From Paracoccus amoyensis (GTDB lineage: Bacteria > Pseudomonadota > Alphaproteobacteria > Rhodobacterales > Rhodobacteraceae), in NCBI RefSeq assembly GCF_014490725.1, contig NZ_JACOQL010000002.1:1-64000 (forward strand): 64,000 bases of DNA. Direction: 5' to 3'. Positions 45,114 through 50,742 of this stretch are shown here, piece after piece (position 1 is the first letter of the stretch; every line of letters begins with the position of its first letter). A program made the translations under genes and the position numbers. The notes beneath the pieces are model-generated. The model saw only the letters and a list, made by a program, of their open reading frames with translations. It was not told the DNA's origin and did no database searches.

Positions 45114-46703
45114 ATGACCCGTCCATGCGCCCTGCGGCGTGCTTTGATTTCCGTTTCCGACAAAACCGGCATGATTGACTTTGCCCGCAAGCTGTCCACG
45201 CGCGGTGTCGAGATCCTGTCAACTGGCGGCAGCGCCAAGACGCTGCGCGAGGCGGGTGTTCCCGTCATCGATGTCGCCGATGTCACGGGTTTTCCCGAGA
45301 TGATGGATGGCCGGGTCAAGACATTGCATCCCGCCGTGCATGGCGGATTGCTGGCCCTGCGCGACAATGACGAACATCAGGAAGCCGCGCGACTGCACGA
45401 TATCGGCATGATCGACCTGCTGGTGGTGAACCTGTATCCGTTCGAAGAAACCGTCGCCAAGGGCGCCGATTATGACGAATGCATCGAGAATATCGACATT
45501 GGCGGCCCCGCGATGATCCGCGCCGCGGCCAAGAACCACGCCTTTGTCACAACCATCGTCGATGTGCAGGACTACGATGCCCTGCTGCGCGAGCTGGACG
45601 AAAACGACGATCACACCACGCTGGAGTTCCGCCAGCGTCAGGCGCAGATCGCCTATGCCCGCACCGCAGCCTATGACGCGGCTGTTTCCAACTGGATGGC
45701 GGACGCGATCGGGCAGGAAACACCGCGCCGCCGCGCCTTTGCCGGAACGTTGGCGCAACCGCTGCGCTATGGCGAAAACCCGCATCAGGCTGCTGCGTTC
45801 TATACCACCGGCGAATCGCGTCCCGGCGTTGCCACGGCGCGTCAGTGGCAAGGCAAGGAACTGTCCTACAACAACATCAACGATACCGACGCAGCCTTTG
45901 AGCTGGTGGCCGAATTCGATCCGTCCCAGGGTCCGGCCTGCGCCATCATCAAACACGCCAACCCCTGCGGCGTGGCGCGTGGTGACAGTGCGATCGACGC
46001 CTATCGCCGCGCCTTTGATTGCGACCGAACCTCGGCCTTTGGTGGGATCGTGGCGCTGAACCAGCCGCTGGACGGCCCGACGGCGGAAGAAATCGTGAAG
46101 ATCTTCACCGAAGTCGTCATCGCCCCGGACGCGAATGACGAGGCCAAGCAGATCTTTGCCGCCAAGAAAAACCTGCGCCTGCTGACGACGGGCGGCCTGC
46201 CGGACCCGCAGGCGGGCGGCCTGACCTTCCGTCAGGTTGCAGGCGGCTTTCTGGTGCAGGGGCGCGACAACGGCCATGTCGGATTGGGCGATCTGAAAAT
46301 CGTGACCGAACGCCAGCCTTCGCAGGACGAACTGAACGACCTGCTGTTTGCGTGGACCGTGGCCAAGCATGTCAAATCGAACGCCATCGTCTATGCCAAA
46401 GATCTGGCGACCGTCGGTATTGGCGCCGGTCAGATGAGCCGTGTGGACAGCACCCGCATCGGTCGCCGCAAATCCGAAGACATGGCCGAAATCCTTGGCC
46501 TGTCCGAACCGTTGACCAATGGTGCGGCAGTTGCGTCGGACGCATTCTTCCCCTTTGCCGACGGGATCGAGGCTTTGGCCGAAGCCGGTGCCAGGTCGGT
46601 CATCCAACCGGGCGGGTCGATGCGCGATAACGAGGTGATTGCCACCGCCAACCGTCTGGGTCTGGCAATGGTCTTTACCGGTCAAAGGCATTTCCGTCAC
46701 TGA
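45114..46703 (+). CDS. purH: Bifunctional AICAR transformylase / IMP cyclohydrolase
   Basis: A 529-residue enzyme for the last two steps of purine synthesis. The N-terminal IMP cyclohydrolase (MGS-like) domain has '[15 protein letters not shown]', '[15 protein letters not shown]' and '[15 protein letters not shown]'; the AICARFT domain has '[14 protein letters not shown]', 'KHANPCGVA', '[12 protein letters not shown]' and '[11 protein letters not shown]'. GAGG precedes the ATG; the stop overlaps lspA (TGATG). Confidence 0.97.
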
Positions 46704-47374
46704 TGCAACACGAGCTTCCCTTAGATCAGGCGGACAAGCCCGCCCTCCAGCCCAAGGCCACCCGGCCACGGGCCCCGCGCAAGCCCAAACCGCCTGTGCG
46801 CACGAACATGCGGCTGGTGATCTGGATCACCACCGCCATTATCCTGCTGGATCAGGTGCTGAAATATTATGTGGTCCACGTCTTGCGGCTGGATCAGCTG
46901 CGCGAAATCGACGTGCTGCCGCCATGGTTGAACCTGCGGATGGCGTGGAATCAGGGCGTGAATTTCGGGCTGATGTCGTCGGAAAACACCGCAACCAAAT
47001 GGATTCTGGTCGTGGTCGCGGCGGTGATCGTGATATGGGTCTGGGTCTGGATCTGGCGCAGCAATGCCAGCCGTTTGGCCCAGATCGCTGCCGGATTGCT
47101 GATCGGCGGTGCCATCGGCAATGTCATCGACCGCATCTATTACGGCGCGGTCGCCGATTTCCTCAACATGTCGCTGCCGAATTGGTCAAACCCCTACAGC
47201 TTCAACGTCGCCGATATCGCGATTTTCGCGGGTGCCATCGGGCTGGTCCTGATGCCGCAGAAGAAACCGGAACCGGTCAAGGCCACGCGCAAGGCGGCGC
47301 CGAAAAGCGGCAGAACGACGCCAAAATCGGCTGCTGGCGACAACACCCGTGACGGCGCGGATAATTCGCGTTAG
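46703..47374 (+). CDS. lspA: Lipoprotein signal peptidase with extended termini
   Basis: A 223-residue membrane aspartyl protease (signal peptidase II) that removes lipoprotein signal peptides. Four helices; catalytic aspartates in 'GGAIGNVIDRI' and 'NVADIAIFAG'. Two extensions lengthen it beyond the usual ~160: about 35 N-terminal residues rich in Pro/Arg/Lys and a basic C-terminal tail of about 40. It is coupled to purH. The next gene encodes a predicted lipoprotein substrate. Confidence 0.94.
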   Translation: MQHELPLDQADKPALQPKATRPRAPRKPKPPVRTNMRLVIWITTAIILLDQVLKYYVVHVLRLDQLREIDVLPPWLNLRMAWNQGVNFGLMSSENTATKWILVVVAAVIVIWVWVWIWRSNASRLAQIAAGLLIGGAIGNVIDRIYYGAVADFLNMSLPNWSNPYSFNVADIAIFAGAIGLVLMPQKKPEPVKATRKAAPKSGRTTPKSAAGDNTRDGADNSR

Positions 47375-47405: not shown

Positions 47406-47927
47406 ATGCGGGCAGTTGGGCTGGTATTGGGAATGGCGACCATCGCCGTGCTTGGCGCGTGCAGCAGCAATCGCGGCCTGATGAACATCGAATCCGGCCA
47501 GACGACGCCGGATGAATTTGCGATCATCCCGTCCAAACCGCTGAACATGCCGCCCGATCTGGCCTTGCTGCCGACCCCGACACCGGGTGGCGCGAATATT
47601 ACCGATCCGACACCGCATGCCGATGCGGTTGCAGCCCTTGGCGGCAATCCGGCACGGCTGGAGGATCGTGGCATCGGTGCCGCCGATCAGGCGCTGGTCG
47701 CTGCCGCAAGCCGCAATGGGAACGACCCGGCGATCCGGGGCAGACTGGCACAGGCGGATGCCGATTATCGGTCGCGCAACCGCCGTCGTCCGCTGGAGAT
47801 TCTGTTCGGCACCTCGGTCTACCAGCGGGCCTATCGTCCGCAGGCACTGGATGCGCGGGATGCACAGGTCCAGTGGCAGGGTGCAGGCGCAATCACGCAG
47901 ACATCGCCGGCCCCCGTCACGAAATGA
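47406..47927 (+). CDS. DUF3035 lipoprotein
   Basis: A 173-residue lipoprotein with lipobox 'VLGAC' (Cys19) and the DUF3035 region around 'ESGQTTPDEFAIIPSKPLNM' and 'PPDLALLPTPTPGG'. The 'PDEF-V/I-P-PL-PP' pattern also occurs in BAM-associated lipoproteins of alphaproteobacteria (BamF), but that assignment is only inferred. It lies directly after lspA; its stop overlaps the P450 start (ATGA). Confidence 0.87.
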   Translation: MRAVGLVLGMATIAVLGACSSNRGLMNIESGQTTPDEFAIIPSKPLNMPPDLALLPTPTPGGANITDPTPHADAVAALGGNPARLEDRGIGAADQALVAAASRNGNDPAIRGRLAQADADYRSRNRRRPLEILFGTSVYQRAYRPQALDARDAQVQWQGAGAITQTSPAPVTK

Positions 47928-49138
47928 TCCCCGGCTTCGACCCGGACACAGCCGAATTTGGTGAAAACCCGTGGCCCGCCTATGCCGCGCTGCGGGCGCA
48001 GCCGGGCCTGCCATTGATGCCGGGATTTGGCGGCCATATCGCCAGCCGCTTTGCCGATGTCCGCGCGATTGCCATGGATCGCCGCATGGTCCGCGATCCG
48101 GGTGTCTTTGCCTCGGACGATCAGGTGCGGCGCCTGCAAATCGCCAACAACTTTCACGACATGCCGTTTCACGAACGCTTCGTGCAAACCTCGATGCTGG
48201 AAATCGACGGGCCGGACCACGACCGCCTGCGCAAGGCGGTCTTTCCGTTCTTTACCAAAACCCGGTTGGAGAGCCTGCGCGGCTTCGTCACCGACTGGGT
48301 CAACGATGCGCTGGATCGCCTGATCCCGCAAGGGCGGATTGATTTCATCGCCGACCTTGCCGCGCATCTGCCCGGACAGGTGATCGGCCATCTGATCGGA
48401 ACAGATGCCGCGATGGCCCCGCAAATGACCATCTGGTCGGATGAGGTCGTCAGCTATTTCGACATCAACCGCACGGCGGAAAAGAAAGCGCGGGCCGAAA
48501 ACGCGACCCGGCTGTTCCACGACCTGCTGGAGCAGCTTTATGCAGATCGCAAGGCCCGCCCACGTGACGACCTGATCAGCGTGATGATCGGCGCGGAAAC
48601 CGCTGGCTTGATGAGCCATGACGAACTGATCGCGACGATCATGCAGATTTTGCATGCGGGCCACGGCTCGACCATCGACGTGACGGGCAGCGGGCTGCAT
48701 GCGCTGCTGCTCCATCCCGATCAGATGGCGCGACTGCGCGCGGATCGCGGGTTGATGCCGACGGCGGTGCAAGAAATGTTCCGTTATGCTGCGCCGCTGC
48801 CATTCTTTCACCGCTATGCGGCCGAAGACATGGCCATCTGCGGACAGGACTGGGCCAAGGGCACGAAATTCGGGCTGCTATATGCCAGTGCGAACCGCGA
48901 TCCTGCGGCCTTTGATCGGCCCGACCGCTTCGACATCACCCGCAAGCCGAATGTTCATCTGGCTTTTGGCACCGGGCCGCATGTCTGTCTCGGCAACAAT
49001 CTGGCGCGGCTGAACATGGAGGTTCTGTTCGCCGCGCTGCTGGACCGGACCCGTGACATCGCGCTGGAAGCGGCTGCGATCTGGAAAACCGGGCTGCAGG
49101 CGCATGGCCCGTCCAGCCTGCCCGTTCGCTTCAGTTAA
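47924..49138 (+). CDS. Cytochrome P450 with altered I-helix
   Basis: A 404-residue soluble bacterial-type P450. The haem loop is 'FGTGPHVCLGNNLARL' (Cys355), with the ExxR motif Glu284-Arg287. The I-helix oxygen-binding motif reads 'HAGHGSTID' (244-252), so the usual acidic residue before the Thr is Gly248; Thr250 remains. Such changes occur in atypical P450s, including peroxygenase-like ones. No redox partner gene is adjacent. Substrate unknown. The 4-nt overlap couples it to the DUF3035 lipoprotein. Confidence 0.92.
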   Translation: MIPGFDPDTAEFGENPWPAYAALRAQPGLPLMPGFGGHIASRFADVRAIAMDRRMVRDPGVFASDDQVRRLQIANNFHDMPFHERFVQTSMLEIDGPDHDRLRKAVFPFFTKTRLESLRGFVTDWVNDALDRLIPQGRIDFIADLAAHLPGQVIGHLIGTDAAMAPQMTIWSDEVVSYFDINRTAEKKARAENATRLFHDLLEQLYADRKARPRDDLISVMIGAETAGLMSHDELIATIMQILHAGHGSTIDVTGSGLHALLLHPDQMARLRADRGLMPTAVQEMFRYAAPLPFFHRYAAEDMAICGQDWAKGTKFGLLYASANRDPAAFDRPDRFDITRKPNVHLAFGTGPHVCLGNNLARLNMEVLFAALLDRTRDIALEAAAIWKTGLQAHGPSSLPVRFS

Positions 49139-49230: not shown

Positions 49231-50742
49231 ATGCGTCGCCCGATTGTTTCCACAGCCTTCGCGCTGTCCCTTGGCACGCTGCCCGCATTGGCGGAAATGC
49301 CAGAGGGCGTGACCCATTTCACCCTTGATAACGGGCTGGAGGCCGTGTTGATCGAGGATCACCGCGCCCCGGTCGTGGTCCAGATGCTGTGGTATAAAAT
49401 CGGCTCTGCCGATGAACAGCCCGGAAAATCAGGCATCGCCCATTATCTTGAGCATCTGATGTTCAAGGGCACGGACAAGATGGCCCCCGGTGAATTTTCC
49501 AAGACCGTCACCGCGAATGGCGGTATGGACAATGCCTTCACCTCTTACGACTACACCGGCTATTTCCAGCGTATCGCGGCTGACCGCCTGCCGATGATCA
49601 TGGAAATGGAGGCTGACCGCATGGCCAATCTGAAGATTGGCCAGGATGACTGGCAGGCCGAACGGCAGGTGGTTCTGGAAGAGCGCGCCCAACGGATCGA
49701 CAGCGACCCCTCGGCCCTGTTTTCCGAAGAGCAGTCGGCGACGCTGTATTACAACCACCCCTATGGCCGCCCGGTGATTGGCTGGCGCGCGGAAATGGAG
49801 GGGCTGACGCTTGACGATGCGAATGCGTGGTATGATGACCATTATTCCCCGAACGAGGCGGTTCTGGTCATTGCGGGCGATGTGACCCCCGAACGCGCCC
49901 GCGAATTGGCCGAACAATATTACGGCCCCATCCCCGCAAAGGGTGAGGCAGAACCACGCATCCGGCCCCAAGAACCCCAACAGCGCGCGCCCCGCCGGAT
50001 GGAAATGAGCGATCCCCGCGTCCCGCAGCCGGTTCTGACCCGCAGCTTTATCGTGCCTGAACGCAACGCGGGCGATCAGTCCAAGGCTGCCGCCCTGACC
50101 GTGCTGGCCGAGCTGTTGGGTGGGTCGATGCAAACCTCGTATCTGGGGCGTGAACTTGCCCTGCCGGGCAAGGCATTGTGGGTCAACGCGGGCTATGACG
50201 GTCTGGCCGTCGATCCGACGAATTTCTCTATCGCGATGATCCCGGCCGACGGCATGGACCGCGCCAAAGCCGAAGCCGCACTGGACGAGGCATTGGCCAC
50301 ATTTGTCGAAAAAGGTCCAAATGCCACTGATCTGGAACGGGTCAAGACCCGCATCCGTGCGGCCCGCATCTATGCCCGCGATTCCGCCCATGGCCGCGCC
50401 TATGATTACGGGCAAGGGTTGGCGACCGGACTGACCATAGAAGATGTGAACGATTGGCCCGACATCCTGTCCCAAGTCACGGTCGAAGATGTCACCACCG
50501 CCGCCCGTGAACTGCTGAACAACAAGGCCGTTGTGACCGGCTGGCTGCTGCCCGCCGAAGCGGAGGCCAAGGTGGCGGACGACGCACAGCAACAGCCGCC
50601 ATCCCCGCCAACAGGGATGACGGCCCCCGCGACGCCAGACACCGCCCCGGCAGAAACGGCTGATCAGCCGCCTGCACGATCCATGCCGCGACCACCGGGG
50701 CGCCCATCCAAATCCGCCGAACCCAATGAGGTGCAACAATGA
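49231..50742 (+). CDS. Periplasmic M16 zinc peptidase, catalytic partner
   Basis: A 503-residue M16B (PqqL/processing-peptidase-like) protein with signal peptide (about 1-21, ending ALA). The inverted zinc motif HxxEH is His71-Tyr-Leu-Glu74-His75, followed by the third ligand region ('ERQVVLEERAQR'). The C-terminal ~50 residues are Pro/Ala-rich and low-complexity. It is paired with the next M16-like gene through an ATGA overlap; the two probably form a heterodimer. A 92-nt gap separates it from P450, so it may have its own promoter. Confidence 0.92.
   Translation: MRRPIVSTAFALSLGTLPALAEMPEGVTHFTLDNGLEAVLIEDHRAPVVVQMLWYKIGSADEQPGKSGIAHYLEHLMFKGTDKMAPGEFSKTVTANGGMDNAFTSYDYTGYFQRIAADRLPMIMEMEADRMANLKIGQDDWQAERQVVLEERAQRIDSDPSALFSEEQSATLYYNHPYGRPVIGWRAEMEGLTLDDANAWYDDHYSPNEAVLVIAGDVTPERARELAEQYYGPIPAKGEAEPRIRPQEPQQRAPRRMEMSDPRVPQPVLTRSFIVPERNAGDQSKAAALTVLAELLGGSMQTSYLGRELALPGKALWVNAGYDGLAVDPTNFSIAMIPADGMDRAKAEAALDEALATFVEKGPNATDLERVKTRIRAARIYARDSAHGRAYDYGQGLATGLTIEDVNDWPDILSQVTVEDVTTAARELLNNKAVVTGWLLPAEAEAKVADDAQQQPPSPPTGMTAPATPDTAPAETADQPPARSMPRPPGRPSKSAEPNEVQQ

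Follow-up and report, generated by a model that had tools for sequence, protein, structure and literature searches.

A CYP107-like P450 family of Alphaproteobacteria with glycine at the I-helix acid site and a proposed rebuilt proton supply

The 64,000-nt stretch of Paracoccus amoyensis DNA analysed here (the window) contains, at 47924–49138 on the forward strand, the open frame of a cytochrome P450 of 404 residues, whose I-helix motif AGHGST has glycine at the site of the usual acid. We propose that this protein is a CYP107-like class I enzyme without prior characterisation, which would work as an O2-dependent, ferredoxin-driven monooxygenase of a small molecule with a rebuilt proton supply; the probability of this reading is put at roughly two in three. 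No description of AGHGST as a P450 motif was found in the main texts searched, none of which mentions 8YHN, and CYP names may exist for members of the family. The available part of a survey of alphaproteobacterial P450s has no mention of Paracoccus (PMC8197338).

The P450 of the window is real, conserved and under purifying selection. Its product matches the Pfam family p450 (PF00067) in a profile search with an E-value of 2.6e-27, and the features of the superfamily are present: the heme-thiolate loop FxxGxxxC, running from F348 to the heme-ligand Cys355 in FGTGPHVCLG (Cys355 codon, 48986–48988, forward strand), and the ExxR motif of the K helix (E284–R287, 48773–48784, forward strand). Both Cys355 and ExxR are found in 56/56 cores of the AGHGST family. 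Compared with five orthologues, the gene has dN/dS values of 0.13–0.22 at dS of 0.8–1.05; these values, together with the open frame and the intact ExxR and Cys, rule out a pseudogene. The presence of the heme Cys also speaks against a P450-derived glycosyltransferase activator (TIGR04515, score below cut-off), a reading that was rejected. The protein has nine NCBIfam matches, all of which lie far under their curated cut-offs. With a mean pLDDT of 65.8, the AlphaFold model is weak; it suffices for a match to the P450 fold and falls short of placing Asp252. Scans for promoters and terminators gave no signal clearly above that of shuffled sequence.

P450s of the CYP107 type (CYP107P2, 8yhn; CYP107H1/BioI, 3ejb; PksS, 4yzr; and CYP107A1/EryF) are among the best matches in both sequence and fold, and share with the window P450 a full-length alignment, a canonical heme loop and ExxR. 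The identity to CYP107P2 is about 30% (by Foldseek, from the weak AlphaFold model), and membership in a CYP family corresponds, by the naming rule, to about 40% identity. The difference from the solved relatives that were aligned lies in two glutamates, one in the I-helix and one after the Cys, which all of them retain. HMM alignments to CYP107P2, CYP125MRCA, PksS and BioI run without gaps across the I-helix motif (A245-G246-H247-G248-S249-T250; 48656–48673, forward strand) and place the Glu of all four opposite G248. The glycine at the acid site, first proposed in a sequence-only reading of this DNA, was thus borne out, and none of the four alignments restored an acidic residue there. The same reading had counted Thr250 as the catalytic threonine that is kept, which is off by one position: the catalytic Thr site (Thr252 of P450cam) is occupied by Ser249, and T250 is the residue after it. 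CYP107P2 itself has AGHEAT, that is, with the acid present and the alcohol missing.

Two further features were absent from that reading. Position 252 (48677–48679, forward strand), which is Asn in the solved relatives in the HMM alignments, is Asp in the window P450; it stands four residues past G248, at a distance of one turn in the I-helix, and its position makes it a candidate for a relocated acid. In addition, the family alignment places Asn364 (49013–49015, forward strand) nine residues past the heme Cys, where the solved relatives have Glu in the HMM alignments. This Glu we take to be Glu360 in CYP107A1 and Glu366 in P450cam. The water chain of P450cam reaches Glu366 (PMC3840065).

These features extend over the whole AGHGST family. 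In all, 151 P450 translations were reduced to 83 with distinct cores, 56 with G248 and 27 without it. Since the set of 56 was chosen by G248 itself, with the sequences nearest to the sister query kept out, the weight lies on the clade test given below. G248, S249 and Asp252 exist in 65/65 non-redundant members (the 56 and nine further ones), and H247, S249, D252, R183, K188, E192, H296 and N358 are likewise present in all 56 G248 cores, with T250 retained in 55 of them. The residue nine past the Cys varies among the 56 (Asn in 40, Asp in 15 and Thr in one). Of the nine further distinct members, which came from 13 loci with four duplicates among them, five are encoded on plasmids of Rhizobiaceae and four belong to other families of the class; all nine read AGHGSTID, with Asp nine past the Cys. 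The 27 other cores have Glu at the acid site in 26, Glu after the Cys in 26, and His at position 252 in 25; they include L108 (AGHETT) and L164 (AGTQAT), both of which stand outside the tree groups.

In a maximum-likelihood tree, the 55 full-length AGHGST rows (the incomplete row L077 was left out) were split off by one branch with support of 99/99. The AGHGST type was again a single clade, with support of 1.0, in a wider quick tree, in which the AGHGST and AGHEAT types formed a group (0.999) that excluded the 17 P450s of AGHETT type from the class; the AGHEAT copy from genome G853 was nearest to the AGHGST clade (0.943). On the simplest reading of these trees, the acid would have been lost on the branch leading to AGHGST.

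The redox partner is indicated by gene order in part of the family. A gene for a [2Fe-2S] ferredoxin of the putidaredoxin type starts 12–41 nt downstream of the P450 gene, in the same orientation, in 15 of the 24 non-Paracoccus loci opened (10 in genus g210, three in g218, five in Rhizobiaceae, and one each in G286, G281, G954, G988, G879 and G983, that of G281 being a partial gene at a contig end). The 15 comprise all 10 g210 carriers and 5/5 of the Rhizobiaceae plasmid loci opened, namely those of Shinella zoogloeoides, Sinorhizobium chiapasense, Ensifer adhaerens, Rhizobium sp. 11515TR and R. tropici CIAT 899, which are five of 17 among the matches listed and show 49–53% identity. All three linked ferredoxins examined carry the Pfam domain Fer2, and one that was compared with solved structures matched ferredoxin VI best, followed by putidaredoxin and, lower in the list, terpredoxin. 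An AraC-type regulator gene adjoins the P450-ferredoxin pair in 14 of the 15 loci (by Pfam in one and by homology in the rest); no AraC gene was found beside the pair in L180, which has a flank of 1.5 kb.

In two g210 loci (L149 and L150), genes resembling a polyamine-type ABC transporter (by eye) lie divergently beside the P450-ferredoxin-AraC set, which possibly hints at an imported nitrogenous substrate. In two loci of Sinorhizobium/Ensifer plasmids (L251 and L252), a gene for ureidoglycolate lyase (Pfam in L251) adjoins the set, and other genes resembling those of purine/allantoin degradation (by eye) are found near it.

No such ferredoxin was found in the other nine non-Paracoccus loci (one of them an incomplete gene at a contig end and two with flanks of 1.5 kb) or near the Paracoccus copies, as judged from 31 distinct long-flank loci, some cut by contig ends, and the three copies with 48–50% identity. 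The genome of the window has seven Fer2 matches, none of them on the window's contig, and the window itself contains no ferredoxin match. The earlier statement that no ferredoxin gene is adjacent therefore stands for the window and does not extend to the family as a whole. Because the redox partners of P450s are often encoded elsewhere in the genome, the lack of an adjacent ferredoxin gene in Paracoccus says little for or against a ferredoxin-driven enzyme. A free-standing ferredoxin in the window's genome is 46% identical to that of Shinella, and a homologue is located at G000 C9:383296-383550.

Ferredoxin linkage at this frequency points to an O2- and ferredoxin-driven monooxygenase with rerouted protons and argues against a peroxygenase, the first alternative to be weighed. 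With the acid gone, bound O2 might remain unprotonated, and the enzyme might use H2O2 through the shunt and need no redox partner, as the sequence-only reading had suggested. Such a function would fit the lack of the acid in every member examined, the Asn after the Cys in Paracoccus and the Paracoccus copies without a ferredoxin nearby. In the CYP152 peroxygenases, however, Arg-Pro replaces the acid-alcohol pair (PMC5818669), and this signature is absent from the present family, where 56/56 AGHGST cores have Gly248-Ser249 at these positions. The force of this objection is reduced by the peroxygenases reported outside CYP152, namely CYP116B5, CYP154C8 and CYP105D18 (PMC10750395). In view of the invariant Ser249 and the downstream ferredoxin genes, we consider a peroxygenase unlikely.

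A second alternative is an isomerase (the type that the same reading had named), dehydratase or reductase that activates no O2 and whose relay would be free to decay. Two relay positions are indeed altered. Against this, Ser249 and Asp252 are invariant and thus not drifting, and part of the family is linked to a ferredoxin. Isomerase P450s of the CYP74 type have an insertion in the heme-binding loop, whereas the spacing of FGTGPHVCLG is canonical and such an insertion is absent. A non-oxygenating function thus seems quite improbable.

The inference from a missing acid to either of these functions is also opposed by a precedent. In CYP51 the I-helix Thr is preceded by a signature His, whose acid partner lies on helix F (PMC9519919; PMC7908997); CYP51 is, like the proposed AGHGST enzyme, a redox-partner-driven monooxygenase without an acid at the I-helix site. 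The two differ in that CYP51 has His at this site and the AGHGST P450 has Gly, which lacks a side chain.

For the monooxygenase favoured here, we suggest a normal O2-dependent P450 cycle, with electrons from a [2Fe-2S] ferredoxin of the putidaredoxin/FdVI type. The O2 ligand would be held by Ser249 together with waters that occupy the room left by G248, and protons would be supplied by Asp252, by the substrate or by both. Examples of altered proton supply are known in P450s. In TxtE, a different water chain crosses a widened kink of the I-helix (PMC3840065). According to a review, the acid/alcohol pair exists in all CYP107 members but CYP107A1, which has Ala for Thr and in which the substrate acts as proton donor (PMC10741444). 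A change of this Ala245, which corresponds to Ser249, to Ser lowered the activity of CYP107A1 (same source), and Ser249 therefore need not act as a relay. The Paracoccus member would probably draw on a housekeeping ferredoxin; alternatively, the Paracoccus subgroup without a nearby ferredoxin could have changed its chemistry and may use peroxide. What the analysis shows is sequence, conservation, gene order and the partner genes of relatives; the redox dependence of the Paracoccus member, its proton route and any activity we infer.

The place of the gene in Paracoccus is well conserved. In the window, the order is purH, lspA (signal peptidase II; 46703–47374; Peptidase_A8, E = 6.3e-37), a DUF3035 lipoprotein gene (47406–47927, with ATG 47406 as the likely start and a lipobox LGAC read by eye), the P450 gene, two M16 peptidase genes (the first at 49231–50742, by Pfam) and mutL; the three genes with coordinates are on the forward strand, and purH and mutL were named by eye. 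The ATG of the P450 gene overlaps the TGA of the DUF3035 gene (ATGA), just as had been read from the sequence. After five second copies were removed from 36 loci, 31 distinct Paracoccus loci remained. In 20 of these the P450 gene begins at -4 nt relative to the end of the DUF3035 gene, and the full range over the 31 is -4 to +11 nt (start codons being picked nearest the expected place). Co-transcription is likely. The order purH-lspA-DUF3035-P450 was recognized in every Paracoccus orthologue locus examined, followed by M16-M16-mutL where the flank reaches, with one genome (L025, identical to L066) exceptional in that the M16 genes are absent downstream of the P450 gene.

The sequence-only reading had suggested that the P450 may act on a lipid or an envelope-linked molecule. 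If the lspA setting were functional in this sense, the P450 would be co-expressed for that purpose. The conserved order and the close or overlapping start in Paracoccus agree with this idea, but the lspA site is confined to one clade of the genus, with losses inside it. A quick tree built from the genes next to the P450 site placed all 32 carrier loci used under one node of 39 loci, and none was found among the other 23. The conserved order thus holds within this clade and breaks down elsewhere. In 30 other Paracoccus genomes, a subset of the 87 that lack an orthologue at >=67% identity, DUF3035 was present in all 30 and was followed by M16 without the P450 in 25 and by other genes in five. 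In the other genera, the P450 has unrelated neighbours, for example alanine dehydrogenase and ABC-transporter genes (both by eye) or ureidoglycolate lyase (Pfam). A role in the envelope is therefore not supported and appears very unlikely. Since the family exists at many unrelated places beyond Paracoccus, the lspA setting looks like a landing place and not like a statement of function. The simplest reading of the distribution at this site is one gain and several losses.

Genomes G080, G107 and G124, which are included in the set of 30, are also among the seven non-carriers under the carrier node. They have no P450 at lspA (L072–L074), and another gene, resembling a beta-propeller by eye, follows DUF3035; each carries elsewhere an AGHGST homologue with 48–50% identity (L122, L123 and L125), which was probably acquired separately.

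The named orthologues of the window P450 are nearly all from Paracoccus. The AGHGST P450 exists in 38 of 125 Paracoccus genomes, including that of the window, and the other 37 copies show 67–86% identity; the three genomes just described bring in the more distant homologues. The AGHGST family is rare outside Paracoccus in the genomes sampled: judged by score, the type is carried by only three of 392 genomes from other genera of the same family and by four of 385 in a sample of the class (own genome excluded). It is found in 10 of the 25 genomes of g210 and in all three of g218.

The nearest relatives found are the AGHEAT P450s of Alphaproteobacteria, at the dctB-P450-Lrp locus in Rhodobacterales and as a copy in G853 (L226). 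They are 30–38% identical to the AGHGST P450s, with T250 common to both types, and differ in that the acid site is still Glu, position 249 is Ala, and position 252 is His in Rhodobacterales and Asn in the G853 copy. The copy on contig C28 of G853 (L226/L259) combines AGHEAT with an Asp that already stands nine past the Cys, and is a possible intermediate. The AGHEAT locus recurs in Rhodobacterales (L151–L153, L157 and L159; e.g. L157:2870-9816). By eye, dctB/dctD and a TRAP transporter lie on one side, and Lrp, siroheme synthase and sulfite/nitrite reductase genes lie on the other, with a ferredoxin-NADP reductase gene 5–6 kb off. The AGHEAT loci examined showed no counterpart of the ferredoxin and AraC genes that accompany part of the AGHGST family.

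This relationship raises the question of replacement, an idea that does not conflict with the reading favoured here: acting on the same substrate, the AGHGST P450 may have taken over the job of the AGHEAT P450. An AGHEAT query was run against 23 of the 41 Paracoccus carriers, five other carriers and two controls. In 27 of the 28 carriers it found nothing better than the AGHGST P450 itself, and both control genomes (G333 and G555) gave matches of 58–60%. Among the 25 genomes of g210, 10 have the AGHGST type, 12 have a relative with 33–38% identity, three have neither and none has both, an exclusion with p = 9e-5 if the genomes were independent. All three g218 genomes have AGHGST only, and dctB and Lrp are adjacent without a P450 between them in G286, G341, G762 and G763.

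Several points stand against replacement. The carriers are related, and the counts are thus not independent; moreover, the 12 relatives in g210 are represented by two that were opened (L112 and L163), both AGHEAT. Genome G281, an AGHGST carrier, still has an AGHEAT-type P450, strongly diverged, at the Lrp locus. The value of 312 among 379 non-carriers with a family-level match is an upper bound, because equally high scores are reached by AGHETT P450s that belong to other families; the 19 best, which were opened, comprised 18 AGHEAT and one AGHETT. The Paracoccus genomes without AGHGST are mostly without AGHEAT too (17 of 18 gave no match). Finally, neither the P450 nor dctB was found within 1.5 kb of Lrp in the 10 g210 carriers and six Paracoccus genomes; the Lrp region is thus rearranged there. 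We regard replacement as a tentative proposal. The copy of G281, on contig C17 (L164/L204), shows 36–39% identity and has QAGTQAT and Met nine past the Cys; the same genome also carries an incomplete AGHGST P450.

P450s are regarded as needing the acid-alcohol pair almost without exception for the activation of O2. It is conceivable, though we hold it doubtful, that the AGHGST family, over several alphaproteobacterial families, represents a second natural layout for this step, with the carboxylate moved by one turn (Glu248 to Gly, and Asp at 252) and the alcohol restored as Ser249, which displaced the AGHEAT type in Rhodobacterales. The interest of the AGHGST P450 is chiefly for P450 enzymology: a family with Gly for the acid, invariant Ser and Asp, and partial linkage to a ferredoxin offers a clean test of the proton source, and it advises caution against reading a missing acid as the sign of a peroxygenase. 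The apparent exclusion between the AGHGST and AGHEAT types points to a P450 function in Rhodobacterales that is yet to be assigned.
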